64,000 nucleotides of DNA from Primulina eburnea (lineage: Eukaryota; Streptophyta; Magnoliopsida; Lamiales; Gesneriaceae): NCBI RefSeq assembly GCF_022965805.1, contig NC_133106.1:37065913-37129912 (forward strand). Direction: 5' to 3'. This document shows positions 1,109 through 54,900 of the stretch, one piece after another (the first letter of the stretch is position 1; every line of letters starts with the position of its first letter). A program made the position numbers and the translations under genes. The notes under the pieces are model-generated. The model was given only the letters and a program-made list of their open reading frames with translations, made no database searches and had not been told where the DNA came from.

Positions 1109-1122
1109 CTATATATCTATAT

Positions 1123-1158
<36 letters not shown>

Positions 1159-1171
1159 ATATATATATATC
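1109..1171. repeat. (TA)n microsatellite
   Basis: Nearly pure TA dinucleotide run with a few CTATAT interruptions. It sits about 30 bp upstream of the V-PPase TATA box, so length changes here would alter promoter spacing. Open frames across it are low-complexity artefacts. Confidence 0.9.
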
Positions 1172-1197
1172 CTTGGAATATTACTCAGAATGCGTGC

Positions 1198-1205
1198 TAT
1201 AAATA
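1198..1205 (+). promoter_or_regulatory. TATA box of V-PPase gene
   Basis: TATAAATA lies 128 bp before the ATG at 1333. That leaves room for a 5' leader of about 100 nt. It matches the usual plant TATA consensus. Inference from motif and spacing only. Confidence 0.6.
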
Positions 1206-1332
1206 CCAGGGACTCTCCCGTCCTCAACCACCCACCCCAAATTCGTTACAGTAGTTTCCTTCTTTTTCACTCTCGATTCACTCTTCATTCGCTTCATTTC
1301 CGCCGGCCAGAGCAGTTAATGTTCCGGAGAGG

Positions 1333-7806: not shown

Positions 7807-8991
7807 GTAGTTTGTTATAATATGCATATAACTATTTTGGTATGCTCAGCAAATATCTGATCGTCTATAGCTATAAGATTAATAAATTTTCAACAATTAT
7901 TTCTAAATCACTGTGAGAAAAATTACTTGAAATCTCTTCAAATGACTATATATTAGAATTGTGTCCTCATTTAATTTGACAAAATTCAAGAAAATCATCT
8001 TTGATCGTCATTTTTTGGAAGCTTTGCAATAATGATTGCGTGCATCATGTCATGAGGATGATATAGTTTCAATCTCATTTGTTGCGTTTAGAACATAATA
8101 TTATATTATTCATTGAAACAAAACAAATTTTCTTCTAGCGAGTTTATATTTTATTTTATAATATTTTATCTTGTAGAACGACATACAAAATTATTTATTG
8201 TATTTTAAAAATCTTGAGAATAGATACGAATAATGTAATTAAAATATGCATATGAGATATCATTCTAATATATGTCAAAGTATTTGTTTTATTCAATATC
8301 TCATCTAATAATATAACCATTTAGATTTCATGAGCATTTTACGATAGTCAAAATTAATTTGATGAAATATTGTAGAATTTTATTTGAATTTCAATATTTG
8401 GCTAAGTGAATTTATTTGACAAGAGTTTTCTATGCTACATCATATATGTTATAAATTAGCTGGTTAGACACTTTGACTAAAAAAAGAGACAAAAACAATC
8501 TTGTATCACCTCGAAATATATTGAGATAATATTGGAGGAAATAAAGTGAAACTGGCTCGATGTCTCAATAAAATGCACAGAATTCATCTATTATATTGTG
8601 TCAACAAAGCTTTAGAATTGTTCTCACTTCTCATACCATTATAAATAAAATGAAAATTATGTACAATTTGTTTTTCATGTATTTTTTTTCTGAATGAATA
8701 ATATTTTTCTTTTTGAAAAACTATTTTATTGAGAAATATTGACATTTATATGTCGCACAACCATGAAGTAGCAACATAATCATTATATAACACTTAATGT
8801 ACACATACAATTCTTCAATTTCTTCTTCATTGTGCTTCGTTGAAATTTAAATCTGAATCATTCTCGATCTTAAAATTTTGCTTTAAATATGATTTAATAT
8901 ATATGTATATGTTTCATGTTACTTAGTTGGACCTAATTTCAAATATATATAAAAAAATGTGCTTGAATTATATCATACAGAAATTAGGACA
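7807..8991. other. AT-rich spacer
   Basis: No gene and no complete element seen. It probably includes the body of the Helitron whose 3' end is at 7063. Confidence 0.4.
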
Positions 8992-8996
8992 TAGTA

Positions 8997-9345
8997 TGTA
9001 GGACTGAGCACTTGCCGTTTTACCAAAAGTTATAGCTAGTAGTAATGGTACAACTCAAATCTTTTAAACCGCGCAACAGCTCAAGTACCACGGTTCGGCC
9101 GCTCAACCAAGTAGGGACAATTATTGCACCCAACAATCTTCCTCCTATAATTGCACTCATTGCAATAAATGAGAATCGAACCCGTGACCTTGGCTCTGAT
9201 ACCAATTTTAAGACTGAGCGTTTGTCGCTTTACCAAAAACTATAGCTAGTAGTAATTGTGCAACTCAAATCTGTTAAACGGCACGACAGCTCAAGCATCA
9301 CGGTTCGACCGCTCTACCAAACAGGGACAATTATCGCACCCAACA
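8997..9345 (-). mobile_element. Complete TRIM retrotransposon (349 bp)
   Basis: Terminal-repeat retrotransposon in miniature. Two direct repeats of about 139 bp (8997-9135 and 9207-9345) flank a 71-bp interior. On the minus strand the upstream LTR starts TGTTGGGTGC, and just after it comes TGGTATCAGAGCC, the primer-binding site for initiator tRNA-Met. The element is bounded by an identical 5-bp target duplication TAGTA (8992-8996 and 9346-9350). It has no coding capacity. The LTRs have diverged noticeably, so the insertion is not very young. Confidence 0.88.
9192..9205 (-). promoter_or_regulatory. TRIM primer-binding site (tRNA-iMet)
   Basis: Minus-strand TGGTATCAGAGCC is complementary to the 3' end of initiator tRNA-Met and lies immediately inside the 5' LTR. 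It fixes the element's orientation. Confidence 0.8.
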
Positions 9346-38210: not shown

Positions 38211-38786
38211 ATGGATTGGTTCTCTTGGCTGTCAAAGACAAGCTTAGACCCCTTTCTTGTCTACGAATATGCCCTGGCTTTCGCACAAAATGAGCTTGAA
38301 AAAGAAGACATTTTTTACTTCAACCACGACTTCCTCCAAAGCATGGGGATTTCCATAGCAAAACATAGGCTAGAAATCCTAAAACTTGCTACAAAAGAAA
38401 AAGAAAGCCCCCCACATCTCGTGTCAAGGTTACTCATCGCGATCAAGCAAAAGAAGTCCAAGTTTTCAACAAATTTTCAATCTTGGGCGTGTCGTGATGT
38501 GTCGGCACTAGCCGTCATGCCTAGTTTAAGATACAAGAATGCTAAGGCAAAGAAAAGCAAGAGGCTGATTGAGCCTAATAAGATCAGCGAAGCTCCACTT
38601 TTGATCACGAATGGTAGATGCCCTACACTTTTGCCTAGTTCGATGATGGACAAGTCTCTGCACAATGCTTTGCAAGATATCGAAAGGGATGATGAGAAAT
38701 TGAGTGAAGATTATGATGATTATTGGTCTTGTGTTGTTGAAGATATCAAGTGGGATTCAATGTTTCAAAACTTGAAACCAACTTGA
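38211..38786 (+). CDS. SAM-domain protein, tandem copy 1
   Basis: Single-exon protein of 191 residues. The first ~60 residues form a sterile alpha motif domain: MDWFSWLSKTSLDP, ELEKEDIFYFNHDFLQSMGI and AKHRLEILKLA match the plant SAM family that begins with Trp-rich MDWF. SAM domains mediate protein-protein or RNA contacts; the function of this subfamily is not known to me. The middle is Lys-rich and not conserved. The C-terminus has an acidic patch then DYWSCVVEDIKWDSMFQNLKPT, which is shared almost exactly with the next gene and so is probably a functional motif. Same strand as copy 2, 1.3 kb away. Confidence 0.85.
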   Translation: MDWFSWLSKTSLDPFLVYEYALAFAQNELEKEDIFYFNHDFLQSMGISIAKHRLEILKLATKEKESPPHLVSRLLIAIKQKKSKFSTNFQSWACRDVSALAVMPSLRYKNAKAKKSKRLIEPNKISEAPLLITNGRCPTLLPSSMMDKSLHNALQDIERDDEKLSEDYDDYWSCVVEDIKWDSMFQNLKPT

Positions 38787-40080
38787 AATTAGCCTGATTT
38801 TTTTTCCTTATTTTTTCCCTCGTGGCCTGTCTTCTTGTGTGATGAAAGATTGCTCATAGGTTCTTATGCCGATGTTAAAATTACATCGCGTACTTATTGA
38901 AGATCATGTTAAAACTTGTATATTTATATATTGTTTTGGTAGTGTTGTTTGTAGGATGCTTGCATTGTGCTAGTTTCCATTGATTTCATCCTTGGCCAGT
39001 TAGTAAGCAAGCCCGTGTGAAATAAAATAGGCCCAACTATTCTCGAAATTTCATCGACTGTTTTACTCCATGGCTACCTAAATTACTCACGGAAGTTCAT
39101 TTTTCAAAGTTTGAGAATAAAATTTAAACGAATTTCGTCTGTTAGATCACTAGAATTTTAGATGAACATCGATATATGTCGAAAATACAGTGATTCTCAA
39201 AAAATATTAGTAGTTGATTGACAACACTGGATATGAAACCAAATGCATAGAGGTGCACCTTTTTCGAAAACGAACACCCATGGGATCCTTGCCCAACTGC
39301 GCGATGGTGAAAAACCCAGAGTCATCCATCTTGCTATGAAAAAAGGACTTTATTTTAACATATACATAATACACAAATAATTTTCATATCACAAAGTATA
39401 TTTTATTAGATATATTTCAAACACGACTCCATTCATTAAAAAATAGTACTTTTAATTAGATATATGGAGAGAGACAAACCGTCACTCTACATAGTAGATC
39501 TTTTTCTCTCAAAACCAAATTCTGGTCGAAAACTATTATACAAAACTTATAAGACATAAAATACTATGTTTGGATTTGTAAAAAGTAACATTTAAAACCA
39601 CATCCCTTTTATTTTGGAAACAAATTGCCTTATAAACAACAATTTGAGACAATATTGTTTTTCTCTCTCTGTCATATTCTACAATGAATGATTCACATAT
39701 TATTATTACAGATATGCCAAGAATGTATATATTTTACCTTAAAAGTTGCGATTATGTTTTTATTAATTAAGCAATACATGACTCCAATCTAAATAAAAGC
39801 AGTTGCGCAGAAGTTGCCAATTTTCCATACGGGGACATTGCATTAATTAGGCCAAAGCATACAGTTTGATTTGTCACTCTCAATTCCAACTACCAACCAA
39901 TTTTATTCGGGCCAATTAATTACTAAGTGATCTGATCTACTTCCCAAAACACATCAAATAGCACACAGTATGAGCAGTCCTCGACCCTTTTGGAAATGAA
40001 TATTTTTTGTAATTTTTTGGTTCTGTGTACTCTCAGAATGCTCTAAATCACCCCTGCATTTGCAAAAATCAAACCAAGTC
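38787..40080. other. Spacer between SAM paralogues
   Basis: AT-rich. Contains the 3' UTR of copy 1 and the promoter of copy 2. No element ends recognised. Confidence 0.5.
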
Positions 40081-40731
40081 ATGGATTGGTTCGATTGGCT
40101 ATCGAAAACCAGCCTCGATCCATCTCATGTCTATGACTACGCTGTGATTTTCACTTACAACGAGCTTGAAGAAGACGACATGCTCTATTTCAACCATGAA
40201 TTTCTTCAGAGCATGGGCATTGCCGTAGCCAAACATCGACTCGAGATTCTCAAGGTAGCGAGAAAAGAAAAGGGAGGAAAAATAATCCACCCAATGCTGT
40301 GGATCATTCTCGCGATCAAGAAAACCAAGAATTACGTATTCAAGAAAGTCGAAGCTCTAACTCATCGCAACGATTCGTCTCTCTCACTTGTTAAAGTCCG
40401 AAACAACAGTTTGAGGTGGAAGGTATCGATGTTACAAAGGAACAAAAGGTTCTTGAGGGCAGGTATGGAAGAAACCAGGCCAACTAGGGAAAGAAATGAA
40501 AGCCACAAAATTGGGTTTGGTCAAAAGATTTTGATGCTTGGATACAAGGATATGCACGAGACAGATCACGAAAGCTCGAGCTCGATTCGAACTCCCAGCA
40601 GTACCGCTGAAACTAAGGTGAATAGTAGCTTTTCAAGCACATTGGGTCAGTCCGTAGATGGTGATTACTGGTCTAGTTGTATGGAAGAAAGCAAGTGGGA
40701 TTCAATGTTTACAGACTTGAAACCTACATGA
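40081..40731 (+). CDS. SAM-domain protein, tandem copy 2
   Basis: Paralogue of the preceding gene, 216 residues from the Met at 40081. I chose this start because it aligns with MDWF of copy 1; an in-frame ATG seven codons upstream (40060) is less likely. The SAM domain reads MDWFDWLSKTSLDP, ELEEDDMLYFNHEFLQSMGI, AKHRLEILKVA. The basic middle segment is longer and unlike copy 1. The C-terminus DGDYWSSCMEESKWDSMFTDLKPT repeats the conserved tail. Both ends are kept while the middle has diverged, pointing to selection on the SAM domain and the tail motif. Role unknown. Confidence 0.85.
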   Translation: MDWFDWLSKTSLDPSHVYDYAVIFTYNELEEDDMLYFNHEFLQSMGIAVAKHRLEILKVARKEKGGKIIHPMLWIILAIKKTKNYVFKKVEALTHRNDSSLSLVKVRNNSLRWKVSMLQRNKRFLRAGMEETRPTRERNESHKIGFGQKILMLGYKDMHETDHESSSSIRTPSSTAETKVNSSFSSTLGQSVDGDYWSSCMEESKWDSMFTDLKPT

Positions 40732-41033
40732 TAAGGAGCAAAAATGGTCACAGTTTACCAAAGTGGTCTGCAAGTTAGTCCAAGAACGTATAAGTACGCG
40801 TCGAAAGATAACGACAACAACATTTATGGAAACAAGAAAAAGTGGTCACAGATTTCTTGGGGTTCTTTATTTAATTTAATTTATATTGTTTTGTTATTTT
40901 CGTAATAATCTTGTGATGGCTCGTACACAAATAATTATATCAGTAGTAATAGGCATCACATGTAAGTGTCAAATCATAGGTCTCGAGCAACATTTGGTGA
41001 GAGTGACCTTTTAAATATTTATCTTTTTATAGA

Positions 41034-41190
41034 CAAAAATTTGTGTTAGACGGTCTTACGATCATATTTATTAAACGGATTTTTTATTCGGATTATCCAC
41101 GAAAAAGTATTATTTTTTAATCTAAGAATACTACTTTTTATTGTAAATATGAGTAAGATTGACCCGTCTCACATGAAACTCACTCTTTCA
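41034..41190. repeat. GTGTGAGACGG MITE, copy 8
   Basis: Starts ATTTGTGTTAGACGGTCTTAC, contains ACTACTTTTTATTGTAAATAT, and ends GACCCGTCTCACATGAAACTC. It is more divergent than copy 7. Confidence 0.7.
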
Positions 41191-42108
41191 TATATCTCGT
41201 GACTGGCTTGTGAGGACATATATAATGAATTATGTGTAGTAATTATGATAATTTTCTTGGTTTATGCGATATTCACAAACAAATTGGTTAGATCTGATAA
41301 TATTCGACAAATAATGAAAAAAACAGTTGTTAAAACTTAATTTAATTGTTAATCATTTGGAAAAAAGATATTGGTTAGGGCCATGGTGAATATTTAGGAA
41401 TTTGGACTAGTGGCCAACTAAAAGCTAGCATATAAAAATTTAATATGTCAGACAAGGGAAAAATAGTATTTTTAAAGTACAAAAGGTTTTACCGGCTCTT
41501 TTTATTTCAAGCTCACACTAATATATGTTTCTATCATTTAAATTGTATCTAAAAAACATTCTCACATAAAAAGATGAACTAACACCCAATTTTTTTCAAA
41601 ATAATCAAAATGTAGAAATTTAATCATATAATCTGAACGAATGGAAAACCAAATAACTTACGAAAATAAAACAATTTACAATATTTCATAATTCTTGCGA
41701 TCAATAATCATATACCATCCGTCATAGCCAACCCGTGAACTGATCATAAATATACTAATCATATTTCCGTAAAACTGAATAAAAAATATCTTACAAGCAG
41801 AAGAATATAATAAATACCCAGTTGTGCAATTTAAGCAGTCAATTTTTTTGTCAATCTAGAAGATCAAATTGAGGAAATCAAAATGACAATCAAAATTTAC
41901 CTTCTAAATAGAAATAAACACAACTAATCATCGACAGATTTCGGTTTACAAATAACGAAACTTGAAATTTCCCACTTAAAAATTGAGGAAATAAAACAAA
42001 GACTCTCCACGAAATATTTATATCTACAATAAAAAATTAATTCCTCATATCGTAAAAAGAAAATAATAATGCGAGCCCTTCACTAAAACGCAGAACTCTA
42101 TATTCCAC
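41191..42108. other. Spacer
   Basis: AT-rich, including the probable 3' UTR of the minus-strand serine-rich protein gene close to 42108. Nothing else seen. Confidence 0.45.
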
Positions 42109-42747
42109 TCAGCGAGTCAACGCACTGAGTTCATACTCACTCAGAACTGTACAGAATTCCGAAACCTTCACGCTTCCAGATTCTTCGTTCCTAGAGAGTG
42201 TGGATAACCGGCTCGGCCGCGGCTTGAAATTCTCACGGCGGCGCTGACTATGCGAGGACGGACGAATCAAAGATGCCAGAGCTCTCTTTACCAAATCGCC
42301 TTCAACGGTTCCGATTCGAACCAAGGAATTCGTCATCGCAGATCTCCGCATATTCAATTGATGATTAGTGGACCTATACGACTGTGTCTGGTTATTGACA
42401 TGCCCCGGGGAAAGGCTTTTCTTGTGTAAACTGCACCTGAAGGATCCAGGATGCGTCGTAGGAGAGCACGCACACGTCTTCCTCGGAGCTGATCCTAGCG
42501 GCCTGGGGTTCGACTTCTGGTTGTGCTGGCGGTGGTTGGAGGTGGGAAATCGAACAGTCGGGGAATCTGATCGGCCTAGACTGATACGGGTGGGGCTGGT
42601 GGAGCGGGCGAGGACTGGAGAGGGTCGGGAAACGAAATTGGATCCGGAGATGGAGGAGTAGCAGTAGCGGTTGGGCGAAAGGGATCGGTGGAAGTGGCTG
42701 TAGAGTGTGGTACCGTGAGAGGTCCTTGATTTCGCAGACGATGCCAT
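42109..42747 (-). CDS. Plant serine-rich protein (At5g11090/At5g25280-like)
   Basis: Single exon, 212 residues, Ser and Arg rich with low-complexity SPNR, SPTRISLGRSDSP-type repeats in the first third. The recognisable core is RKTCACSPTTHPGSFRCSLH at about residues 88-107, a Cys-containing motif conserved in plant serine-rich-related proteins of unknown function. The C-terminal half has MRRSAMTNSLVRIGTVEGDLVKRALASLIRPSS and ends in VSEFCTVLSEYELSAL. No signal peptide or membrane segment is visible. The gene is GC-rich relative to its surroundings. Function is not known, and only the family resemblance is claimed. Confidence 0.75.
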   Translation of the reverse strand: MASSAKSRTSHGTTLYSHFHRSLSPNRYCYSSISGSNFVSRPSPVLARSTSPTRISLGRSDSPTVRFPTSNHRQHNQKSNPRPLGSAPRKTCACSPTTHPGSFRCSLHKKSLSPGHVNNQTQSYRSTNHQLNMRRSAMTNSLVRIGTVEGDLVKRALASLIRPSSHSQRRRENFKPRPSRLSTLSRNEESGSVKVSEFCTVLSEYELSALTR

Positions 42748-42798
42748 TGATTACGACTTTTCGATTGTAGAAACTAAAGAACGTTTGTATCAAGGGAC

Positions 42799-42806
42799 AA
42801 TTTATA
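42799..42806 (-). promoter_or_regulatory. Proximal TATA-like site of serine-rich gene
   Basis: Minus-strand TATAAATT lies about 52 bp before the ATG, which would give an almost leaderless mRNA. The distal site at 43047 is more plausible. Confidence 0.3.
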
Positions 42807-43046
42807 GGAGGAGGAGGAGATGGCAGTTGCGTAAATATTACGCGAGGGAGATTCCATTGCAGTTGGTTAAGGATTTGTAAGGGGTTTGGTTTCCTGTGGG
42901 CACCCACAACAAAAGTATGGGATTGTGGAATAATCAGTTTAGGATTCTCACGTCTCCAACAGCGCGTTACTGCGACGTGTTCCGTGGAAAAAACTGGTGG
43001 GCTGTGCGTGTTCCTCACGGAATGATGGCCCCTGGGGTGGGACATG

Positions 43047-43055
43047 TATTTATAG
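43047..43055 (-). promoter_or_regulatory. Distal TATA box of serine-rich gene
   Basis: Minus-strand CTATAAATA, a full plant consensus, would give a leader of roughly 270 nt. Confidence 0.5.
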
Positions 43056-43227
43056 ACTGACACGTGCGACGATAATGCTTGTGCTGGTGAAACTAGAGGC
43101 GGCGATTTGCTGGTTTCGATACATTGGCCAGCGTTCCACGACTCTTAACACTTGGACAGAGTCTTATACACCCAAGCAATTCTATCATCAATCGACAGAT
43201 GCCGAATTTCTAAAATAAAAACAAATG

Positions 43228-43380
43228 TGAAAATTTGTGTGAGACGATTTAATGAGTTGTATTTTGTGAGACATATATCTTATTTGGGTCATCTATAAAA
43301 AAATATTACTTTTTATGCTGAAAATCGGTAGGGTTGATCCGTCACAGATAAAGATTCGTGATATTGTCTCACAAAAACTA
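43228..43380. repeat. GTGTGAGACGG MITE, copy 9
   Basis: Starts ATTTGTGTGAGACGATTTAA, contains TTATTTGGGTCATC and TACTTTTTATGCTGAAAATCGG, and ends GATATTGTCTCACAAAAAC. It lies about 400 bp from the viral insertion. Confidence 0.75.
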
Positions 43381-43774
43381 CTCAAAACAAATTTACCAAT
43401 GACGTTAGAACAGGAAAACACATTAAAATTTCGGGATATACCTCAAAATATTTATTCTCAATTTGAATATCCAGTGCTGCCTAAAATGCAAAAAAATAAA
43501 ATAAAATAATTCAGTGGTTCATCAATCTTTTTATAGATAATAAAGTGGACCGAAGGACTAAACCTTTGAATCGAAAGAGACAATTCAAGACAAACCGAAA
43601 TGATATCACACGTTGATTTTATTGCCATAATTTCATATTCTTCGCCTTTATTTCTTGCAACGCCGGGAGAGAGTTGCGGGCTTTTTTCGATTGGAACTCG
43701 ATCGGATGGGCCTCCACAAATATCCTTTGTGTTTTCTAAAATACATCATTCATCTAATTATTGGAATAGTTTTT
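43381..43774. other. Left host flank of viral insertion
   Basis: Mixed-composition host DNA with no gene that I recognise. The last 12 bases before and into the virus form the repeat described at the junction. Confidence 0.5.
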
Positions 43775-44083
43775 TATAAACTGAAAAGAAATGGGATTAC
43801 CTTGATAAGTTCCTATTATACCTGTTTCATCAACATGAGTTAAAGGATAAATTTGATAAATAAAAGGAAGACCAAGTATTAGTTGGCTAGAAATGTCTTT
43901 AGCTAATAAAAAACTGGTTTGAATACAGTTTTTATCTTTGCAAATATAAGCTTTAGGTAATTTGTAATTAATTTCTAAAGGTTCTCCTCCTGCATGAGAA
44001 AGAGAATGAGTAGTTTTATGAAAATATTTTGTAGGAATTAATCCTTCCTGTATAACATTTAAATCTGCACCACTATCTATCAT
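43754..44083 (-). CDS. Viral aspartic protease, 5' part of pol (truncated)
   Basis: The N-terminal part of the pararetroviral polymerase polyprotein. The ATG at 44083 overlaps the coat-protein stop as ATGA. The catalytic aspartic protease triad text appears as IDSGADLNVI, and the flap/hydrophobic strand QLILGLPFI follows about 60 residues later. The frame runs into host DNA at the insertion point (43775) and stops at 43754, so the RT domain is missing here and lies at the other end of the insert. This is a true truncation caused by linearisation of the viral circle. Confidence 0.85.
   Translation of the reverse strand: MIDSGADLNVIQEGLIPTKYFHKTTHSLSHAGGEPLEINYKLPKAYICKDKNCIQTSFLLAKDISSQLILGLPFIYQIYPLTHVDETGIIGTYQGNPISFQFIKNYSNN
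43766..43777. repeat. 12-bp junction repeat, left
   Basis: ATAGTTTTTTAT occurs here and at 51597-51608, straddling both virus-host junctions by 2-3 bases. It is a candidate target-site duplication or microhomology used in integration. Confidence 0.6.
43775..43816. repeat. Viral terminal redundancy, left copy
   Basis: 42 bp identical to 51557-51598. It encodes the same protease-end residues at both virus ends. Confidence 0.92.
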
Positions 44084-46551
44084 AGCAATAAATTCTTTTT
44101 ATAAGAATTATCAATTAATAAAGTAATATTAGTATACCATTTTTGAGATATAATCATACTCAAAACAGATAAATGTTTCTGATTATTATCAGGAAATGAA
44201 ATATCTTGAATATTTTCAAAACTTTCAGAAATTGAATTATTATGATTTTCAATGACTGAAATACGATAATTTAAACTATTATTATTATCATGTAAAAATT
44301 TTATTTGTTGTTTAAGATTATCAATCTCTTTAACTAAATCATGTATAGTAACTGGATTTTGTTGACTATATTTTTTCTGTAAAAGATTTTTAATTTCTTT
44401 CATAGAATAAGGTTGTTCTTGTTTAACAAGAATGTTATTATCATTATTGCTTGTTGAAGCAGTATTCTCCATTTGATCTATGATAGTGGATTTTAATATT
44501 GGATCCTTAATCATCTTAAGGAATTCTAGAATATTATTGTTAGTTAAAACATTAATATTTAAATCTTGAAATTGAGACATAAGTTTATAAAACTCATCAT
44601 TTTTATTATTATCCTCTATAGGATTAATACAAGATTTTCCTTGTATACAATTATTGCATTCTTCTAAATCAGAAATGTCTGATTCATTATCCAGAATTTC
44701 TTCTGAATTATAGGATTCTGAGGAATTCTCAGTTTCACTATCAGAATTATTATTAGAATCCATTATTATTTTAAATAATGTTTCTTTTAGATTATCATTT
44801 ATTTCTAAATTATTAATTTTGTTTTTAGCCCAACATTGATTAGCATAATGTCCTGGCTTTTTACATTTTCTACAAATTATTAATTTGTTTTTGTATTTAT
44901 CTTTTTTCCTATCAGCTTTAGCTGATTCACGAATTTCTTTTCTTTTCATTTTTCTTTCTTTTTGTCTTTCAGACAAATGTCTTTTCTTATAAATCTTATC
45001 ATCCTTATCTTTAATTTTCTTCTTACCTTTATTAGGTAAGTCCATACCAAATTGATCACAAAATTTTCCTAACTGTTTTTTCTCTAGTAAATTTTGTCTC
45101 TTAATTTGATTATTTAATTTTAATTCATTACAGAGAGCTAAACCCTCTTGAATACAAGTATTAATCAAATTACCATAAGTATAATTATCATAAGAGATAT
45201 TTATATCATCTTTTCTTAATACTTTTCTAACCCTTTCAGCAAATAAGAAAGGTAAGCCATCTATGAATTTAGCTTTCCACAGACTATTATTACAGTCTGG
45301 AATCTCATAAATTCGAGATAAGAAAGTATCTTTATACCATCTAAAATCAGTAAGTGTTTTACATTTTAGATTACTTAATAAAGTTCTAATTTGTTCACTA
45401 TTATCAGTGAATTTTCCTGTGAAATGTTCAATCATAGTTAATATTAATGTATACACTACATTTTCTAATTGAATATTATTTTCCATTTTTATGGAATTAA
45501 AGATTTCATCTTTTTGAGAATAATTTAAATAATTATCCCACCAACCTTTAAGTTGGCCAGTAAATCCTGCTGTTATCATTTTAGCAATATTCTTATCAGT
45601 ATTACCTGATGATTTACACACAGTACTATACATTAACATTCTGTGAGCAGTATTATAAATTTGCCTATCACTATAACCATCAATATTCCATTCATAAATA
45701 TTTTTCCCATTATAACTATTAGAATAAATATATTCATTTTCTTCAATGAGAACATCCATGGGAGTAGGTTTATTATAGTAATATTTGGATGTAGTAGGTC
45801 TATCAGCCCATTTGATTTTATTAATTTCATTATCAGAATGATTATTAATCTTATCTAAATCTTCAGACTCTTCATTAAGAGTATTTAAATTAAGATTTCT
45901 AAATTTTTCTTCTAATAATTTTTCTATATCAGAAACAGAAGATTTAAATTTAAAATCTTTAATATCAGGAGGGGATTGAATGGATGATGTAGCAACAGAA
46001 ACAATATTATTTTCTGGTTCTTCTATATGAACATCAGGTTTAATTTTATTAATAGCTAAAATAATTTTATCAATACGATCTTTAAGAGAATTAATCTCTT
46101 CTTCTATAATCGTAAGATATAAATTTGTGTAATTCTGTTTTTCTATTATCTGATTAATATGTTTAACAGTGATTTGTAACATATCATTCTCAAATAATTT
46201 TGAAAAAGCAGTAAAATTTAAAATTTTATTATTCTTTTCTATAATAAAAGATTGTTGAGGAGGATAAACAGATTTTTGAATCTGTCCTGAAGAAAGTTTA
46301 TAATTTCTTTCAAGAATAGAAATATAATCTATAATAAATGTTTTAAAAAACCAAGGAACAAAATGTATAAGTTTATTCTGGTTTTCACAATATTTATAAA
46401 ATGTTGAAACAATATATTCAAACTCTTCTTCAGAAAAACTTTTAAAGTACCAATTTCTGAAAGATTCCCATTTGGGTAAATAAAATTCTGCATTGATCTT
46501 TGCTCTAGCAGAAGATCCTTTAGTAAAATCAATCTTTGATTTACTATCCAT
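44080..46551 (-). CDS. Viral coat protein (capsid), 823 aa
   Basis: Structural protein of the pararetrovirus. A CCHC zinc knuckle, CRKCKKPGHYANQC, at about residues 560-573 is the caulimovirid coat signature for nucleic acid binding. It is preceded by a very basic stretch (KRHLSERQKERKMKRKEIR) and followed by an acidic, Ser-rich segment and a coiled-coil-like C-terminus. A central region with WWDNYL and AKFIDGLPFLFAERV fits the retroviral-type capsid fold. Start ATG at 46551 overlaps the movement-protein stop as TAATG; the end overlaps the protease ATG. The frame is complete. At 823 residues it is large for the family, so it may be processed into several proteins. Confidence 0.85.
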   Translation of the reverse strand: MDSKSKIDFTKGSSARAKINAEFYLPKWESFRNWYFKSFSEEEFEYIVSTFYKYCENQNKLIHFVPWFFKTFIIDYISILERNYKLSSGQIQKSVYPPQQSFIIEKNNKILNFTAFSKLFENDMLQITVKHINQIIEKQNYTNLYLTIIEEEINSLKDRIDKIILAINKIKPDVHIEEPENNIVSVATSSIQSPPDIKDFKFKSSVSDIEKLLEEKFRNLNLNTLNEESEDLDKINNHSDNEINKIKWADRPTTSKYYYNKPTPMDVLIEENEYIYSNSYNGKNIYEWNIDGYSDRQIYNTAHRMLMYSTVCKSSGNTDKNIAKMITAGFTGQLKGWWDNYLNYSQKDEIFNSIKMENNIQLENVVYTLILTMIEHFTGKFTDNSEQIRTLLSNLKCKTLTDFRWYKDTFLSRIYEIPDCNNSLWKAKFIDGLPFLFAERVRKVLRKDDINISYDNYTYGNLINTCIQEGLALCNELKLNNQIKRQNLLEKKQLGKFCDQFGMDLPNKGKKKIKDKDDKIYKKRHLSERQKERKMKRKEIRESAKADRKKDKYKNKLIICRKCKKPGHYANQCWAKNKINNLEINDNLKETLFKIIMDSNNNSDSETENSSESYNSEEILDNESDISDLEECNNCIQGKSCINPIEDNNKNDEFYKLMSQFQDLNINVLTNNNILEFLKMIKDPILKSTIIDQMENTASTSNNDNNILVKQEQPYSMKEIKNLLQKKYSQQNPVTIHDLVKEIDNLKQQIKFLHDNNNSLNYRISVIENHNNSISESFENIQDISFPDNNQKHLSVLSMIISQKWYTNITLLIDNSYKKNLLL

Positions 46552-47735
46552 TAAATACTAAAATTCATTTCTGAAACTGTATCAGTTTCTCTAACTTTTT
46601 GAAAGTTACTTTTATGAACTATATTGTTTTGATTTATGATTAAATCATCTACTGTATTAGTAGATTCTAATTCTTCTCTAATTTGAGAAGTAGAAGCTCT
46701 AGAAGTTTGTGGTATATCTACCATATAATCTAGAGGAGAAATAAAAGAGTGACTAGATCTTGATCTAGCATAAACAGAAGAGGGTAATAATCTTCTTTGT
46801 TCATTATTAAACTGTATTTGAACAGTTCCTTCATTAGTTTGTATAACTTGTTCTAAATCTCTATTTATTATAGGATTTTTAGGAACAGCTTGTTCAATTA
46901 TCCAATTTTCTGGAAATTCTATTTCTTCCCATTTTATAGATCTACGAGTTGTAATGTTAGATCTATTAAAATTAGTTTCTATAAGAATAGTTTCATTTAA
47001 TTTTTTATCTATTCTTTTACACATATGATTCAGTGTAAATAATGGTTTATAGTATATACTATAACAGATACATATAACTTCTGTTCCAGGAGTATAATTA
47101 TAACCATGAGTTTTAACATTTAATGTTAAAGAATCTAATATATTAATATCAGACAAAGATAAAGATAAATTTGGATAAATATCAAAATAAACTGGACCAT
47201 GTGCCAGACTAGATTGAATTATTCCCATAAGGGATTGTTTCCAATTCAAATTTCTCCCATCTCTTAAAGCTGCTATGAAGCTTTCTGGTAAACCTTCTAA
47301 TGTTAAAGGTCTAAAAGCAATTTGAATTAATCCTATATGAATAAATTTATAATTTTTCATATAAGGCATAATATCTTTATTATTTAATAATCTTATTACC
47401 ATTTCATTATTATGAAGAGGTACAGATGATTCTGTAGTTTTAACTACTTGTTTAAAACCAATTTTTTCAAAAGTTCCTAACTTATAGATCATTTTAGAAT
47501 CTATCTTAGGAATAGTCCATTTATTCAATAAATCTAAATTTTCAGGATAATCATATTCTTCATTTAAACTGTTATGAACAGTTTCTTTCATACTGAAAAT
47601 ATTCATTTGAATAAAAAGTGCTAAATTATTAACCAGACTATTTCCATGGCTCTGATACCATCTGAGGCTTGGAATCAAAGAGGAATCTGATATGTGGCAT
47701 TGTTTTACCAAACTTTTCCTTAGTGGCTTTCGCAC
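46551..47735 (-). CDS. Viral movement protein (30K superfamily)
   Basis: Cell-to-cell movement protein of the pararetrovirus, upstream of and coupled to the coat gene. The core IHIGLIQIAFRPLTLEGLPE followed by ALRDGR, then LAHGPVYFDIYPNLSLSLSD, is typical of caulimovirid 30K movement proteins. The open frame begins at 47735 (394 residues), but the first 43 codons cover the tRNA primer-binding site, which normally lies in the intergenic region. The Met at 47606 (351 residues) is therefore the likelier start. The C-terminal third is Ser/Thr-rich and variable. The frame is complete. Confidence 0.83.
   Translation of the reverse strand: MRKPLRKSLVKQCHISDSSLIPSLRWYQSHGNSLVNNLALFIQMNIFSMKETVHNSLNEEYDYPENLDLLNKWTIPKIDSKMIYKLGTFEKIGFKQVVKTTESSVPLHNNEMVIRLLNNKDIMPYMKNYKFIHIGLIQIAFRPLTLEGLPESFIAALRDGRNLNWKQSLMGIIQSSLAHGPVYFDIYPNLSLSLSDINILDSLTLNVKTHGYNYTPGTEVICICYSIYYKPLFTLNHMCKRIDKKLNETILIETNFNRSNITTRRSIKWEEIEFPENWIIEQAVPKNPIINRDLEQVIQTNEGTVQIQFNNEQRRLLPSSVYARSRSSHSFISPLDYMVDIPQTSRASTSQIREELESTNTVDDLIINQNNIVHKSNFQKVRETDTVSEMNFSI
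47644..47660 (-). promoter_or_regulatory. Viral primer-binding site (tRNA-Met)
   Basis: Minus-strand TGGTATCAGAGCCATGG is complementary to the 3' end of initiator tRNA-Met, the universal caulimovirid minus-strand DNA primer and the conventional genome origin. It lies 38 bp upstream of the preferred movement-protein start. Confidence 0.85.
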
Positions 47736-48308
47736 ACATGGAAGTTATTGGTTTCCAGCCTATATACCATTTTCAACTCAAATTGAGCTAAGAAAAGGAG
47801 AAATTTAAACTCCAGAATAATAATGAATATAAGATTCTTGTTTGGAATTTTACGAAACATAAAAGGATTTACGAAAGATATACCAGAGAAATTAAACAAC
47901 AGAGGATTTATCGAGGGCCCAAAGAATCATAAATTCATAAAAAATCACCCATAAACGCCTTAAACGCCATTTCTCGGCTAAGCAGGCTGAAGGGCTACAA
48001 CATGAATTTATTCTTCCCGGATAAACTCGAACCTTGTGTTAATCATTTCCTGGTTCATCTTCTTACCTTATGTTTTAACCAAAGACTCTTATATTACATT
48101 AGATTCCAGAAATTTAAATAAATCTTTTATTATATCAATCTGATTCCAAGTTACAAATAAATATAGATCATGTCATAGTAAGGAAAATAATTTAGCACGA
48201 ATACTTTAGCCTGTCATTCAGGCTAATCACTGAAATATTTAAATTAAAAAAATAAAAACAGAAAATAAAAACAATAAACTTACAAGGTTGTAAGCAGAAC
48301 TTCAAACT

Positions 48309-48314
48309 TTTATT
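48309..48314 (-). terminator. Viral poly(A) signal
   Basis: AATAAA on the minus strand, about 85-90 nt downstream of the TATA box. In caulimovirids the signal is passed once and used on the second transit, giving a terminally redundant RNA. Confidence 0.65.
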
Positions 48315-48397
48315 GATAACTTCAGAAGGGTTGTATACAAGAGAGAGTAGAGAGGGGAGCAAACTCGACCGTGTTCCTCTAAGAACACAGAAATAGC

Positions 48398-48407
48398 CTA
48401 TATATAG
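48398..48407 (-). promoter_or_regulatory. Viral promoter TATA box
   Basis: CTATATATAG on the minus strand in the intergenic region, correctly placed upstream of the poly(A) signal and leader for the pregenomic RNA. Confidence 0.7.
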
Positions 48408-48601
48408 ATAGAAGAGCCGGACATCAAACCCCGGATTCCATCTTAAAATAAAAATAGTAAATGCTTTATTAAAGCAAAAGTAACATGGTTACAAAATTCA
48501 AAAAGTAAATAGTGATATGCCACCCACTTTTTGTCATGATATGCCATGATGATGTGTTATTCCACCAACTCTTGAATAGTGAGATTCCACTTTCAACGAT
48601 T

Positions 48602-50008
48602 CTAATCATCTTTGGTATTATCTTTGAAAGATTTCTTCAAACTTTCAAATATATCCTCAATTTGAGATAATTGAGGAATATCCTCATCTGGATCCTGTGC
48701 ATCATGCATCTTCATTAGATGTATGAATTGATTATCACTGGAATCTGAAGCCATTGATTGATCTGATTTTGAATCGGAGCATCCTATATTCTTATAAAGA
48801 TCTTTTTTCATTTCATCAATGTAGATTTCTACCATCTTTTCTTTAGAATAGATCTCTGAATATTTTTGAGTCAGAATTTTAAATGGACTCATTGCATCTT
48901 TTTCTTTTTGTTGTTGATTCAACAAATCTTTCTGATATGAAGAAATTTTTTCTTCCATTTGAAGTAAGGTGTCATGACCATGAAGTTTTCCAGATACTGG
49001 ATCTTCTCGTAACATTTTATCCCAAAATTTTGTAGAGCTAGTTCTCCATAGACAAGGGATACCTTCATCTGTATAACCAAATTCTGGCTGCCATTTCCAG
49101 ATCCATGGAATACCGAATTCCGTGAAGAATAGACATAAAGTCTTTCCATCAATCCAATGTTCAGAAAAACTTTTTGTAATAATTGGTGCAACATTCAACC
49201 AAGTATCGAATGGTTTTATAAAAACCTCTGGCAAAATCTTTGCTGATGGACCAAATATTTTCCACCAAATAAAAAACCAATTTGGAATAGGATAATGGAA
49301 AACATTTTCACAAATCTTAAGAAACCATGTATGTTTCCTTTTTTCATTTTCATACAATAAAGTTTTATTAAAACTTTCAATATAATCCCAGAAATTGAAT
49401 TTAAAACTGGTTTTATGATTTTCTGAGTAAAACTCTTTTTCAACCAATGGAGATATACCCCATTCTTCAATAGATATAATCTTTTTGATAATAAACTTAG
49501 AGAAGTTATAACTTCCTTTTTGTTGAGTATTACTGAAAAAGTGAGTAATATCAACACTTTTTGTAGATATGAGAAGATTCTCATAATATCCTCTTTGCTT
49601 ATAAGCACCATATACATATGATGTATTGGTAAAATATCTTTCCATAATAATCCAAGGAGTTTTTTCCCATTGGATATCTTTTTCTTCTATAAGAAGAATT
49701 AATTCTTTATGTTTTGACTCTGTATAAAGAGCTGTATCATTATCATCTTCTTTGATGATATTAGCATATGATGCTGAAGACTGAGAATCAGAATTATTTT
49801 TCTGCTTTTGTTTCAAGAATTCTTGAAATTCATTGTATAACTCATTCTGCTCAGTATTACTGGCTGATGACGAATTAGATAAATTCTGGGCTATTAGCCT
49901 CTGTTTACCATGTTGAGCAATAATATTAGGGGGTTTTCCCCTGCCACCTCGCCCTCTATAAGAGGACTCTCCTCTGCCTCGAGAGTACATATCTGTAGAT
50001 GAAAACAT
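48602..50008 (-). CDS. Viral fourth ORF, possible transactivator/inclusion-body protein
   Basis: A 468-residue frame that starts directly after the RNase H stop (TAA followed by ATG). The N-terminus is RG-rich (RGRGESSYRGRGGRGKPP), suggesting RNA binding. The middle is Trp-rich: WFFIWWKIFGPSAKILPE, then FGIPWIWKWQPEFGYT. The C-terminus is acidic and Ser-rich. Similar GIPWIWKW-type proteins occur, from memory, in other integrated plant caulimovirids. Position after the polymerase is where CaMV-like viruses keep ORF VI (transactivator/viroplasmin), but I see no clear sequence match to that family, so the role is a guess from position. Confidence 0.7.
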   Translation of the reverse strand: MFSSTDMYSRGRGESSYRGRGGRGKPPNIIAQHGKQRLIAQNLSNSSSASNTEQNELYNEFQEFLKQKQKNNSDSQSSASYANIIKEDDNDTALYTESKHKELILLIEEKDIQWEKTPWIIMERYFTNTSYVYGAYKQRGYYENLLISTKSVDITHFFSNTQQKGSYNFSKFIIKKIISIEEWGISPLVEKEFYSENHKTSFKFNFWDYIESFNKTLLYENEKRKHTWFLKICENVFHYPIPNWFFIWWKIFGPSAKILPEVFIKPFDTWLNVAPIITKSFSEHWIDGKTLCLFFTEFGIPWIWKWQPEFGYTDEGIPCLWRTSSTKFWDKMLREDPVSGKLHGHDTLLQMEEKISSYQKDLLNQQQKEKDAMSPFKILTQKYSEIYSKEKMVEIYIDEMKKDLYKNIGCSDSKSDQSMASDSSDNQFIHLMKMHDAQDPDEDIPQLSQIEDIFESLKKSFKDNTKDD

Positions 50009-51598
50009 TTAAGATAAATATTCTCGAGTTAAGAAATCTGGTAGATGATTATCTTCACCTTTTTTATAAATGATCTCAAAATCAAAAGGAGCTAAATGAG
50101 CCTGCCATCTAGCAAACATTTGCTTAGACACATCATGTTTAAAATCTTTATTAAACATAAATTTTGCAGATTTGCAATCAGTTTTTATAATAAACTTTTG
50201 ATTATATAAATCATCTTGAAATTTTAAAATACATCTAACAATAGCTAAGATTTCTTTTGCTACTGTGGAGTAATTTTTCTGAGCATTATTCCACTTTCCA
50301 GAATAAAATCTTATAAGATATTCTTGTTTTGTTTGAGGATCTTTTTGTTTTAAAATTCCTCCAAAACCTATATCTGAGGCATCAGTTTCTACAATTTTAT
50401 CACATAAAAGATTTGCCAGCATAAGACAAGGAAGATTTTTAACTTTATCTTTAATAATTTGAACAGCTTTAGTATGCTTATCTGTCCAAGGTAAAGGATT
50501 TTTCTTCAGTCTATCATATAAGATAGCAGAATCTTTAGTAAGATTTTGAATATAAGGAGAAATATAATTTAAACTCCCTAAAAATCTTTGTAACTGAGTT
50601 TTATCAGTTATTATATCTGGAAATTTTGAACCAAATTCAATACTTCTTTGGATAAGAATTATTTTCCCTTTTTCAATCATATGACCAAGAAAACGAATAT
50701 TAGTTTGGAATAAAATCATTTTAGATTTTGAAATAACTAATCCATTTTGAATAACAATATTTTTAAACATTTCTAAATGTTTAAAATGTGTTTTAATATC
50801 ATTAGAAAATACTAAGATATCATCTATATAAACAATTATAAAATTGCTATAGTTATAAAAAATATCATTCATAATTTGTTGAAATTCTGAAGGGGCATTT
50901 TTAAGGCCAAATGGCATTACTGTCCATTCATAATGTCCTATTGGAACATTAAAAGCAGTTTTATATCTATCAGATTCTTGTATTTGAATCTGCCAAAATC
51001 CTGATTTTAAATCAAATTTGGAAAATATAATTGCATGAACTAATCTGTCTAATAAATCTTTTTTATTAGGAATAGGATGCCTAATCCATTTCAAAACCTT
51101 ATTAAGAGGTTTATAATTTATAACTAATCTAGGAACTCCTCTTTCCTGCTCTGAATGTTTATTAACATAAAAAGCAGTACAAGACCAAGGAGATTGAGAA
51201 GGTTTTATTAAACCTTTATCTAACAAAGAATGAATTTCATTCTTGCATAATTCTAGATATTCAGAATTCATTTGACAAGGACGAGCCTTGGTTGGAATAT
51301 TTCTTTCATTAAAATCTTCTTCATATGGAAGAGAGATAATATGCTTCTTACGATTCCAAAAAGCATTTGGTAAATCATTACATATTTCTAATGAAAATTT
51401 ATTATAAATAATTTTTATTTTTTCCTGTAATTTAGGATTCTGTAATTTTTCATCAATTGTGAGAAATTTTATTTCTTCTTTTAAAGAGTTAATTTGAAAG
51501 GTTTTTCTTTCAATCTGTTCTTGTAGTTCATTTAAAATTCTATGAACAGGTTTAGTTATAAACTGAAAAGAAATGGGATTACCTTGATAAGTTCCTAT
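50009..51598 (-). CDS. Viral reverse transcriptase-RNase H, 3' part of pol
   Basis: Main part of the pararetroviral polymerase, open from the insertion end at 51598 to the stop at 50009; the first internal Met is at 51271. RT motifs in order: PRLVINYKPLN, FSKFDLKSGFWQI, PFGLKNAPSEFQ, the catalytic YIDDILVF, and FLGHMIEKG. RNase H follows with VETDASDIGFGG, the conserved Glu in YSTVAKEILAI, IKTDCKSAKF and the terminal HLPDFLTRE. All catalytic Asp/Glu residues are present. The protease part lies at 43754-44083, at the other end of the insert. It is followed with no gap by the fourth ORF. Confidence 0.93.
   Translation of the reverse strand: MGTYQGNPISFQFITKPVHRILNELQEQIERKTFQINSLKEEIKFLTIDEKLQNPKLQEKIKIIYNKFSLEICNDLPNAFWNRKKHIISLPYEEDFNERNIPTKARPCQMNSEYLELCKNEIHSLLDKGLIKPSQSPWSCTAFYVNKHSEQERGVPRLVINYKPLNKVLKWIRHPIPNKKDLLDRLVHAIIFSKFDLKSGFWQIQIQESDRYKTAFNVPIGHYEWTVMPFGLKNAPSEFQQIMNDIFYNYSNFIIVYIDDILVFSNDIKTHFKHLEMFKNIVIQNGLVISKSKMILFQTNIRFLGHMIEKGKIILIQRSIEFGSKFPDIITDKTQLQRFLGSLNYISPYIQNLTKDSAILYDRLKKNPLPWTDKHTKAVQIIKDKVKNLPCLMLANLLCDKIVETDASDIGFGGILKQKDPQTKQEYLIRFYSGKWNNAQKNYSTVAKEILAIVRCILKFQDDLYNQKFIIKTDCKSAKFMFNKDFKHDVSKQMFARWQAHLAPFDFEIIYKKGEDNHLPDFLTREYLS
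51557..51598. repeat. Viral terminal redundancy, right copy
   Basis: Identical to 43775-43816. Identity of the two copies is compatible with a recent insertion, though 42 bp is too short to date it. Confidence 0.92.
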
Positions 51599-51608
51599 AG
51601 TTTTTTAT
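51597..51608. repeat. 12-bp junction repeat, right
   Basis: ATAGTTTTTTAT, identical to 43766-43777 at the other virus-host junction. Confidence 0.6.
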
Positions 51609-51887
51609 TTTTAATTTAATATATATACTCGTACGAAATTAATTAGTTAATTCATAAGTCAATTCATTTTTATTATATAAATAATAAAATATTTCATTGA
51701 TTATGTAAGTTGAGCATTAATTTACAATTAAATAAAAGATATTGATTATTAAATATTAATAACGAGGAGTGAATTATTAGAAAATTTGGAATTTTCAAAA
51801 TATTTGCCATAGGAAGATTGACTCGTGAGTTAGTTAACCAGACTTCGAACTCCTTTATTACGGGATCGAAGCGACGGATGTAAAACA
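51609..51887. other. Promoter of the BRAP2/RING gene
   Basis: AT-rich host DNA between virus and gene. The insertion lies about 290 bp upstream of the TATA box, so it may have displaced older promoter elements. Confidence 0.5.
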
Positions 51888-51895
51888 TATAAATA
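51888..51895 (+). promoter_or_regulatory. TATA box of BRAP2/RING gene
   Basis: TATAAATA, 64 bp before the start codon at 51959, giving a short leader of about 35-40 nt. Confidence 0.6.
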
Positions 51896-51958
51896 CTTGC
51901 TCAGGTCTTTGCACAAGAGAAACTAGAGATTTGCGTAGCACTTCAACCACTATCAACA

Positions 51959-54900
51959 ATGTTGGAAGAGACTTCAACTAGTGCGAGCGCCGCTGCCTCG
52001 GCGGAGGATTTGTTCTGGTCTAAAACCGCCGGAAATCCTTCTGTAGACGTATCCTCGCCATCTAATGCGCCGTCGGAAATCCATTTTTCTTCTGGAAACC
52101 CTAGAATCGAGGAAACCAGAGGCCTCATGCATCTGTACCGCGACGCCGCCGCTCCATCCTCTTTCCGTCTTCCTGTAAAATAATTTGACTTGATCGTTAT
52201 TTCATCGAATTACCGCTCTGTAACAGTAGTTAAGAAATCTGTAGATGATATATTCGAACCTGATTTTTTCTTCCTCTGTGCTGAGCGATTTAGTTTTTCT
52301 ATCCATATAAATAAGCGATTCGGTTTCTTTTCTTGAATATTACGTGTATTCAAGAAGCCGAAGATACTTGCGTTAATATAACCGTTTTTATTGCTGCTGG
52401 TACCATTCCATGTGATCTGCATCTGCACGTTCACGAAAAAAGGTTTCAATTTTGTTAATTAAACAGTTAATTAAAAAAATTAAGATTATATATCATATGA
52501 CCAAAATTGATCGGTGACTTGCATAACATACATTGGATACGTGTAAACACGAATAGAATATATATGTTTGTTTGATTGACTCTTTAATTTTGCTTAAACT
52601 GCTAAATAAATGACTCTCCCAAGCGTTCAGCTTTTCTTCTTGTTTTTTGTGTGTGTGTTTTAGGATGATCGGAAGCCGCTTATTTGCGTTCTAGGGGTGC
52701 CTAATCACATGACGTATTCAGACTTTTGTAAGTTCTGTGGTTCATTCATTCAGCACATGTTGGAAATGCGAATCGTCAGGTCGATACAAGAACTTTGTAG
52801 CAGCTAGTTTAATATTCCACTGTAGAAATGATTTTTCTTACACATGAAAGTTTAGGACCGAGGGGTTGGAGGATCGCTACAGTATTTTAATCAGACTCGA
52901 TTATCAGAATTCAGCTGATTCTTTTTACAAACATTTCCATGGAAAATGCTTTTCATCACTTGAGGTATTTTTTCCTTGGCTGGTTATTTTCTTTCTGAAT
53001 TACTAAAACTTTTATGCAGGAATGCACTTCTTATTTATTACTCTATATATGCTTCACTCTGAACACAGGAGGAGACCTGCCACGTGTTTTTTACTGCTGA
53101 TATACAGTATACTGGATCTATTGAGCACTCACAGCCTTCCACCGGAAGCTCTGGAGAGCAGCCTTCTTGTCCGGTTTGTCTTGGTACTGCATATTAGATG
53201 TTAGTTGTAATACGTTCTGTGCTTGACTAACTTTTGTAACGTAAGAAATATGCAGCTTATGTTATGCAGAGGTTATTGCGTTTTTGGCTTTTGACATCAC
53301 CAAAGCTTGTGGTAGTGTTATAATTGTTGCTGGAACTTTGATCGTTATAGCTGAAACAAAATTGTTGCTACCATGAACTCAAGTATAATTTTGCACGATA
53401 ACAACGAAAATATAGGTTACTCAAAAATGAGTTGATAAGCTGTTGATCTTAGTTACAAATCGGATTCCAATTACAAGTATTTGAGCTTTCTTAGTCTTCT
53501 GTTCTATATCTTTCACTGTGTAATACTGATAGTATTATTCTACAGTTCCAAGAAAAAAATTGAACTGCTGAACCAAATTAGTTGCCTATTGCAGAGAAAT
53601 TAGACCAACATTCAGGTGGAATTCTTACTACTATCTGCAATCACTCCTTTCACTGCTCTTGTATTTCTAGATGGACAGATTCTTCCTGCCCGGTAGGTAT
53701 TATTTCACCACTCTTGGAATTATTTCAGCTACGATGAAGGCTACCTTAGGTATTTTACTAATGATGTTGATTACCTAGGTATGTCGTTACTGCCAGCAAC
53801 AGCCTGAGAAATCAATTTGTTATGTTTGTCAAACTACAGACAACCTCTGGATGTGCGTCATTTGTGGTTTTGTAGGTTGTGGGAGGTAAAACATCTGGTC
53901 TGCCCCATCTGAGTTACATAATAATTTCTGATTTATCAGGAATTATTGTGGAGTGATGATTCGTAAAACAGAGGAAATTTTTATTGGTTTCTAATTATGT
54001 TATTTGGGGTATAGAAACAAGGATGGACATGCTGTTAGCCATTGGAAAGAAACACAGCATTGCTATTCCCTTGAGCTTGAAACTCAAAGGGTGTGGGACT
54101 ATGTCGGAGACAACTACGTTCATCGTTTGATCCAATCTAAAACTGATGGAAAGTTGGTTGAGCTAAACAGCCATTGCACACATAAAGATGATGGATGTGG
54201 TGATTGTTTTGGATATGGTGACACTGTTCCAGACGGCGGAGTTGAATCTGTACATTTTTAACTGACTATTTTTTTTCTCTCACCGGCTTCATTCATGATT
54301 TGAAATTTCTTCCTTGCAGATTGTTAACGAGTACAACGAGCTTCTTACTTCTCAACTTGAAAATCAGAAAAATGTTAGTTCCTCTGTCTATTATCATCAT
54401 CTAATGTTGATGGTATCTTTGTTTATTATGTGAGTATTCTCTACTTTGGAATTTGGATACAGTATTTTGAGTCTTTACTACAAGAAGTTGAAGAAGACAC
54501 CGAAAGAGAATCTTCTGCTGCTGTCGAGAAAGCTTTGAGTCAAAATTCAAAGTTGCTGAAACTACAGGCCAAGCTGGACAAATTCTCTGAAGAAAAGAAA
54601 TTTCTCGATGATGTGACTAACTTTTTGAATTTTCTCTAGATTTTCACATCTTAATTTAGTAGCATTGTCACATCGCTGTCCAAATTGGATTGAAAAGTGT
54701 AAAGAAGATATGGTCTAACATGAGCTATTTTACTATGTTTTGAAACTGTGTCATATTTACTTTTGTAGATCAATGACAATCTTTTGAGGAACCAGAGCAT
54801 ATGGGAATCAAAGATAGATAAAATCGAAGAAAGGTAATACTCTTCAGCCTAGAGATATGGACAGACAAAATGTACCTATGTTGATATTGTTAGATTTTAA

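Follow-up and report, generated by a model that had tools for sequence, protein, structure and literature searches.

A circularly permuted endogenous caulimovirid, with a probable target-site duplication, in the genome of Primulina eburnea

The window analysed here is a 64-kb stretch of the Primulina eburnea genome (C6:37065913-37129912), taken from an assembly of 812 Mb in 1224 contigs. It contains an element with pararetroviral genes, which are read from the minus strand. The features of the element and of its borders are as follows (window positions).

43766..43777, plus strand: 12-bp flank word, probable duplication, left copy; the last 4 bp could be viral as well
43774..51598, viral sense on the minus strand: circularly permuted endogenous caulimovirid, consisting of a single 7782-bp unit and 43 bp more
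43774..43816, minus strand: 43-bp terminal repeat, left copy
43774..44098, minus strand: protease part of the polymerase frame, 107 codons, cut by the left end of the insert; the frame starts at the CP/PR break
44080..46551, minus strand: coat protein frame, 823 aa, with DUF7588, DUF7746 and a caulimovirus coat domain
46551..47606, minus strand: movement protein, 351 aa (PF01107; E-value: 4.3e-17)
47607..48601, minus strand: intergenic region, with a TATA box (48406-48401) and AATAAA (48314-48309)
47649..47660, minus strand: presumed initiator tRNA-Met primer binding site, an exact 12-base match in the intergenic region
48602..50008, minus strand: ORF4, 468 aa, a conserved protein without a known domain
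50009..51598, minus strand: RT and RNase H part of the polymerase frame, 529 codons (PF00078, PF17919, PF17917), cut by the right end of the insert
51556..51598, minus strand: 43-bp terminal repeat, right copy
51597..51608, plus strand: 12-bp flank word, probable duplication, right copy; the first 2 bp could be viral as well

The movement protein (MP) and coat protein (CP) frames have one base in common, which is part of both the MP stop codon and the CP start codon. The CP has the coat domain PF22909 (E-value: 1.1e-8, above the cutoff) and a match to a CCHC-like zinc knuckle that falls below the curated cutoff (E-value: 0.0018). The C-terminus of this 823-aa frame runs into the N-terminus of the protease (PR), and the left protease piece has an IDSGAD motif, read by eye, which is similar to the motif of relatives. 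Four frames (the protease piece and PR-RT linker not among them) were scanned for domains, and none contains an integrase. ORF4 has no match in the PDB and none above the cutoff in Pfam, where a single sub-cutoff match is found, in 1 of 23 members (E-value: 0.01). It has 22 relatives, of which all those with plant names are from asterids (Erythranthe, Sesamum, Penstemon, Solanum and Catharanthus). In the Catharanthus relative (P0142), apparent CP C-terminal sequence, judged by eye, precedes the same domain.

The 12-base motif at 47660-47649 is presumably the tRNA-Met primer site. Matches with up to two mismatches arise by chance; the exact match sits at the expected place. The leader is approximately 760 nt long (if its start is assumed at 48370) and contains many short uORFs, with the AATAAA at 48314-48309 as the leader polyadenylation signal, and its fold is strong (z of -6.8 against 20 shuffles). 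An Rfam scan of positions 41000-54000 gives no match, and no tRNA genes are found in the 64-kb window. Elsewhere in the window (8990-9345, minus strand), a similar direct-repeat pair, seen by eye, flanks a perfect tRNA-Met primer site (9204-9193); we take this structure to resemble a small non-coding TRIM-like LTR element.

The element has a 30K MP, a coat protein, RT and RNase H1, no integrase domain in the four frames scanned, and a tRNA-Met primer site, and on these sequence characters its membership in the Caulimoviridae is well supported. Caulimoviridae have circular dsDNA genomes of 7.1-9.8 kb. The 7782-bp permuted unit falls in this range, the circle being known here from sequence alone. 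Endogenous caulimovirids are a known kind of object, and those described (florendoviruses in PMC4241990; PMC10377300) are similar to this element in their MP, CP, RT, RNase H, protease motif and tRNA-Met site, as well as in their many copies, AT-rich sites and tandem copies.

As judged by published descriptions, the gene plan of the element (MP, CP-PR-RT-RH, ORF4) matches neither Wendovirus nor the florendo- and petuviruses. Wendovirus, as described in PMC9794742, is similar in size (approximately 7.7 kb) and in having four ORFs, the last of which is conserved and of unknown function, just as ORF4 is without a match. However, its CP ORF comes first and is followed by the MP with a first protease, such that two proteases are encoded in two ORFs. 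In the window copy the MP precedes the CP, one protease motif is seen and the MP ORF has no protease family match. Florendoviruses and Petuvirus likewise have fused CP, PR, RT and RH, and florendoviruses also have an extra ORF of unknown function, according to the account in PMC10377300. Their MP is described as part of one polyprotein (a single ORF in petuvirus, PMC9719215), whereas here it is separate, and a sister frame of 1443-1450 aa leaves no room for it. RT clustering within a genus is set at 55% amino acid identity in the published work available. No exogenous virus is named among the 120 listed of 1177 RT relatives, and scans of IMG/VR with the RT protein and with the alignment find no relative.

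A protein search of the genome with RT-RH, in which the best 100 of 37,092 first-look candidates were scored (the window's own match included), indicates at least 100 related copies. An open reading frame 1443-1450 aa long encloses 17 of these best 100 scored matches (in one case the match itself contains a stop); from its length, this frame would comprise CP-PR-RT-RH. In the window copy, the sister-type frame is split into the 823-aa frame and a protease-RT frame. At the CP/PR boundary, a single base distinguishes the window copy from 34 of the 35 loci compared (30 of 31 distinct copies), the exception being L020. The protease motif lies within the first 450 residues, in one frame with the protease N-terminus, in 9 of 120 listed relatives from other plants. 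A programmed frameshift at the CP/PR boundary was considered and rejected because the sister copies read a single frame there. An initial sequence-only reading had described the coding frames as free of internal stop codons. This is correct for MP (351), CP (823), PR (107), RT-RH (529) and ORF4 (468) taken singly, but the frames are not intact, as the CP-PR-RT frame is broken at the CP/PR boundary.

The proposal that the insertion is relatively young is borne out by its few private changes. Differences found only in the window copy (12 of 4117 compared sites) correspond to approximately 0.4 Myr at the assumed rate, which is an upper value because some of them may predate the insertion. One disabling change in 6834 coding bases sets an upper age limit of 0.4-0.9 Myr (assuming neutral decay and indel ratios), and the identical 43-bp pair limits the age only to approximately 5 Myr (assumed rate of 7e-9 per site and year). 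The insertion is thus probably younger than approximately 1 Myr. RT pN/pS between the window copy and the others is 0.05-0.47 (28 of 29 comparisons used; L025, with a 3-nt indel, was left out). As the RT differences are mostly synonymous, the copies diverged mainly during virus replication. CpG decay was dropped as an age clock. The insert is AT-rich (27% G+C vs 33-37% in the host stretches compared) and has a CpG observed/expected ratio of 0.23 at 43774-51598 vs 0.79-0.97 in host stretches, with no excess of TpG or CpA, and so the depletion looks like a viral trait and not like decay.

The insert is bounded by an exact direct repeat with a start-to-start spacing of 7782. The repeat was already recognized as identical at both ends in the sequence-only reading, which gave its length as 42 bp instead of 43. 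The 43-mer has no further plus-strand occurrence anywhere in the 64-kb window. In 27 of 29 sister RT loci (L002-L030; the exceptions are L026 and L029), the sequences on both sides of the 43-mer are joined through one copy of the repeat. Because these loci are continuous through the 43-mer, the window copy is a circular permutation that was opened in the PR-RT linker, which upholds the earlier view of a single 7782-bp unit opened in the protease-RT gene. By the same evidence the repeat is not a viral LTR and was duplicated on the opening of the circle.

The end positions of 30 other copies provide a comparison for this opening. These copies are ones that, on inspection by eye of the 100 scored RT matches, had no other listed match nearby, although some of them do have neighbours (seen for c14 and c19). 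For copies c1-c10 the reading covered 5 kb to either side of RT. Copies c11-c30 were read in 401-bp windows at the expected primer-site edges, with one longer stretch each for c11, c17, c20 and c22, and ends elsewhere in these 20 copies are therefore missed. Most of the sampled ends lie in the intergenic region. The tRNA primer site is a known minus-strand discontinuity, and an end within 15 nt of its first base is found in 6 of the first 10 copies and 11 of the next 20 (17 of 30 in total). The first ten copies have 15 ends, 6 within 15 nt of the primer site (P = 2e-11) and 13 within 800 nt (P = 8e-8), both against a uniform expectation. Further viral DNA adjoins the ends of c21, c27 and c30, and in c10 a rearrangement precedes the end. 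The window copy departs from this pattern: neither of its ends is at the tRNA primer site or in the intergenic region, and both lie almost on the opposite side of the circle. In rice tungro bacilliform virus-like elements, as far as described in PMC526188, ends similarly cluster in the intergenic region and at open-circle discontinuities, and flanks are AT-rich. They differ in that none of the segments is described as having virus structure, and in that the window copy is without an intergenic end.

Two ends that fit one circle are present in 7 of the 30 other copies. Their deviations from unit length are -28 (c9), -10 (c13), -1 (c23), +7 (c20), +9 (c26), +96 (c24) and +369 bp (c6), compared with +43 bp for the window copy. 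Of these, c20 has an internal deletion, and c13, c23, c24 and c26 are known from their ends alone, with unread interiors. Copy c2, which would be at -128, was left out of this count because its left side adjoins other viral DNA. A whole single unit had been regarded as an exception among integrated caulimovirids; with 7 of 30 copies near unit length, it is no exception in this genome. Endogenous caulimovirids are described in the published accounts available as mostly fragmented and rearranged, with sites of the (TA)n type and small gains or losses of sequence, whereas here there is a whole unit with a probable host duplication, and flank duplications occur in sister copies as well. What sets the window copy apart is the position of its ends, away from the primer site, and the probable duplication of host sequence.

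The insertion lies within a region of approximately 1.4 kb between two divergent host reading frames. One is a gene with BRAP2, RING and zf-UBP domains, whose start codon (at approximately 51959) is about 360 bp downstream of the insertion, and the other is a divergent ORF without a Pfam match (start at approximately 42744), about 1 kb away. A neighbouring transporter gene is 94% identical to its Primulina huaijiensis counterpart, which points to a probable host in the Gesneriaceae. A short repeat (about 150 bp, 43230-43376), which could be a SINE or MITE, lies approximately 400 bp to the left of the insertion. It has 45 further scored matches elsewhere in the genome, and 39 of these are 82-90% identical. 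Two SAM-domain ORFs are located near one another at 38211-40728 (plus strand).

The word ATAGTTTTTTAT adjoins both outer junctions of the insert (43766-43777 and 51597-51608) and is found nowhere else in the window on either strand. As 2 bases on the right and 4 on the left are possibly viral, the certain host duplication is 6 bp, which may be its true length, and the maximum is 12 bp. Displaced cuts in the flanks of the window copy reach at most 6 bp (0 of 225 reach 12 bp), and none of 4000 random host pairs has a 12-bp word. Against a duplication, blunt cuts at one host place do give words of at least 12 bp in 0.4% of trials. Local tandem words of at least 12 bp are found at 34 of 56,078 host positions. 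The 12-bp flank word is a probable, though unproven, target-site duplication. A search of the assembly with the left flank (best 40 of 4711 candidates scored) yielded no empty allele, as nothing in this flank recurs apart from the repeat of about 150 bp.

Twelve two-ended copies were compared in this respect (the window copy, c3, c6, c8, c9, c11, c13, c17, c20, c23, c24 and c26). Six have flank words of 10-19 bp (window copy 12, c3 10, c8 15, c20 15, c23 13 and c24 19 bp), and each of these words exceeds all 225 displaced cuts in its own flanks. Copy c3 is marginal, with a 10-bp word at its outermost junction vs a displaced-cut maximum of 9, and its inner left junction gives words of 5-6 bp. 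In c23 and c24, a few extra bases lie between word and virus. The other six copies (c6, c9, c11, c13, c17 and c26) have words of 3-6 bp only and thus no duplication, which indicates that duplication is not a fixed part of the process. The five long words other than that of the window copy (c3, c8, c20, c23 and c24) are all in AT-repeat DNA, a setting that the displaced-cut control answers only partly, and the window copy is the only example outside such DNA. Copies c2 and c4 (words of 5 and 4 bp) were left out because the left side of c2 adjoins viral DNA and the left junction of c4 is an insert inside the virus; if both are included and c3 is taken at its inner junction, the count is 5 of 14. 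No report of target-site duplications in endogenous caulimovirids was found in the open-licence literature searched, and for the bird hepadnavirus insertions examined in PMC2946954, the text available reports no flanking direct repeats. The recurrent flank duplications are the unexpected part of these results and are worth following.

The origin of the window copy that best fits these data is entry at the DNA level, in which a viral circle was opened and taken up where the host DNA had a staggered break, by end joining with fill-in (probability of roughly 0.6). Two single-strand breaks in the PR-RT linker, approximately 43 nt apart and on opposite strands, would have turned a unit-length viral circle into a linear molecule, and fill-in of the staggered viral ends would then have produced the 43-bp terminal repeat. 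This linear viral DNA would have been captured by end joining at a staggered break between the two divergent host frames. Fill-in of the host break probably duplicated 6-12 bp, with possible microhomology of 2 and 4 bp at the joints. The sequence data show that the unit is single and permuted, that 43 viral bp are repeated, that both flanks share a 12-bp word and that most ends sampled in sister copies are intergenic, often at the tRNA primer site; we infer the staggered cuts, the fill-in, the end joining and the role of the 12 bp as a target-site duplication.

In the main rival to this scheme, the virion DNA would have had a second natural discontinuity at this point, and a plus-strand gap with a flap of approximately 43 nt and a nick opposite would have given the 43-bp repeat. 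One end of c5 is at 51539, only 17 nt from the repeat (chance of 0.02 for the two non-intergenic ends of the first 10 copies), and the rice elements, in the account given in PMC526188, show another cluster of junctions within the long ORF, likewise at a discontinuity. However, c5 is itself rearranged, and its support is weakened by the further non-intergenic ends that were found later. Opening at a polypurine tract was rejected, as there is no such tract at the opening site and the best G-containing tract (51136-51147) is more than 400 nt away. A 600-bp query also runs through the site in 40 of 40 scored matches; these are the best 40 of 534 candidates, which hides broken copies, and the window's own is not among the matches listed. 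A second natural discontinuity is thus an unlikely source of the repeat. The exact repeat, the permutation and the whole unit could also be accounted for by a Campbell-like route in two steps, in which the host site already held 43 bp of viral filler and a circle recombined into it by a single crossover. Short viral filler fragments of this kind are plausible, but 43 bp is very short for homologous recombination, two events would be needed at one place, and the sister copies vary by small gains and losses around one unit with no shared repeats, which together make this route improbable. Tandem copies at a spacing of approximately 7.8 kb are present in the genome, and so the insert might be a piece of a linear concatemer or tandem array that is 7825 bp long by chance. 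A uniform concatemer fragment would have an excess of 43 bp or less with a probability of only 0.6%, and several other two-ended copies are also near one unit. Such length deviations fit opened circles better than pieces of a concatemer, which we consider a slightly poorer prospect than the two-step route.

Another alternative is the machinery of retroelements, either a LINE endonuclease acting through target-primed reverse transcription or an integrase borrowed from an LTR retrotransposon. LINE insertions have duplications of variable length, which the variable flank words of 10-19 bp resemble, and there is a T-run at the site of the window copy. Integrases produce fixed duplications of 4-6 bp and fixed element ends. 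The words seen here are 10, 12, 13, 15, 15 and 19 bp long in 6 of 12 copies, the ends are variable, and no integrase domain was detected in the four frames scanned; the variable duplications and ends argue against an integrase. Borrowed integration machinery is one of the two hypotheses presented in the review PMC10377300, as far as its text is available. Target-primed reverse transcription is opposed by the nature of the ends. Whether at the reverse-transcription discontinuity, as in many other copies, or in mid-gene, as in the window copy, they are the ends of DNA rather than RNA molecules, and the junctions inspected lack a poly(A) tail. Retroelement machinery is therefore very improbable as the whole explanation, and a LINE endonuclease could nevertheless have made the host break. 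An assembly artefact, in which two separate insertions or a misjoin supplied the two ends, is made possible by the at least 100 similar copies in the genome. It is just as hard to credit, as the contig is 39 Mb long, a matching outer 12-bp word is not expected from a misjoin, and nothing else in the assembly matches the left flank next to the junction (among the best 40 of 4711 candidates).

A broader and more tentative proposal is that caulimovirids, which have no integrase, enter this genome by a semi-regular route of DNA capture. Near-unit linear genomes, mostly opened at the reverse-transcription discontinuity, would be joined into staggered breaks and leave duplications of 10-19 bp, and the window copy would be a circle that was opened at the PR-RT linker and entered in the same way. 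Were this so, caulimovirid integration would be a more orderly process than so far described, and the staggered cuts would point to a host nuclease. A 2023 review (PMC10377300, section 3.1) describes as speculative how caulimovirids get into the genomes of plants. The window copy offers a hint about the entry into plant genomes of viruses that lack an integration enzyme, and the question becomes countable in a single assembly through end positions, length relative to the circle and the presence and length of duplications.

Clusters of near-identical copies are located at C12:4.93-5.00 Mb, C17:13.85-13.91 Mb and C7:27.51-27.55 Mb, several of the copies lying in a frame of approximately 1443 aa. 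In the C12 and C17 clusters, several copies are spaced by approximately 7.8 kb and both orientations occur. Copy c4 (L037, C3:17344937-17349937) contains a non-viral stretch of approximately 3 kb (406-3363), on both sides of which viral positions 48387-48391 are present. Judging by this arrangement, the stretch seems to have entered the provirus later, duplicating 5 bp.
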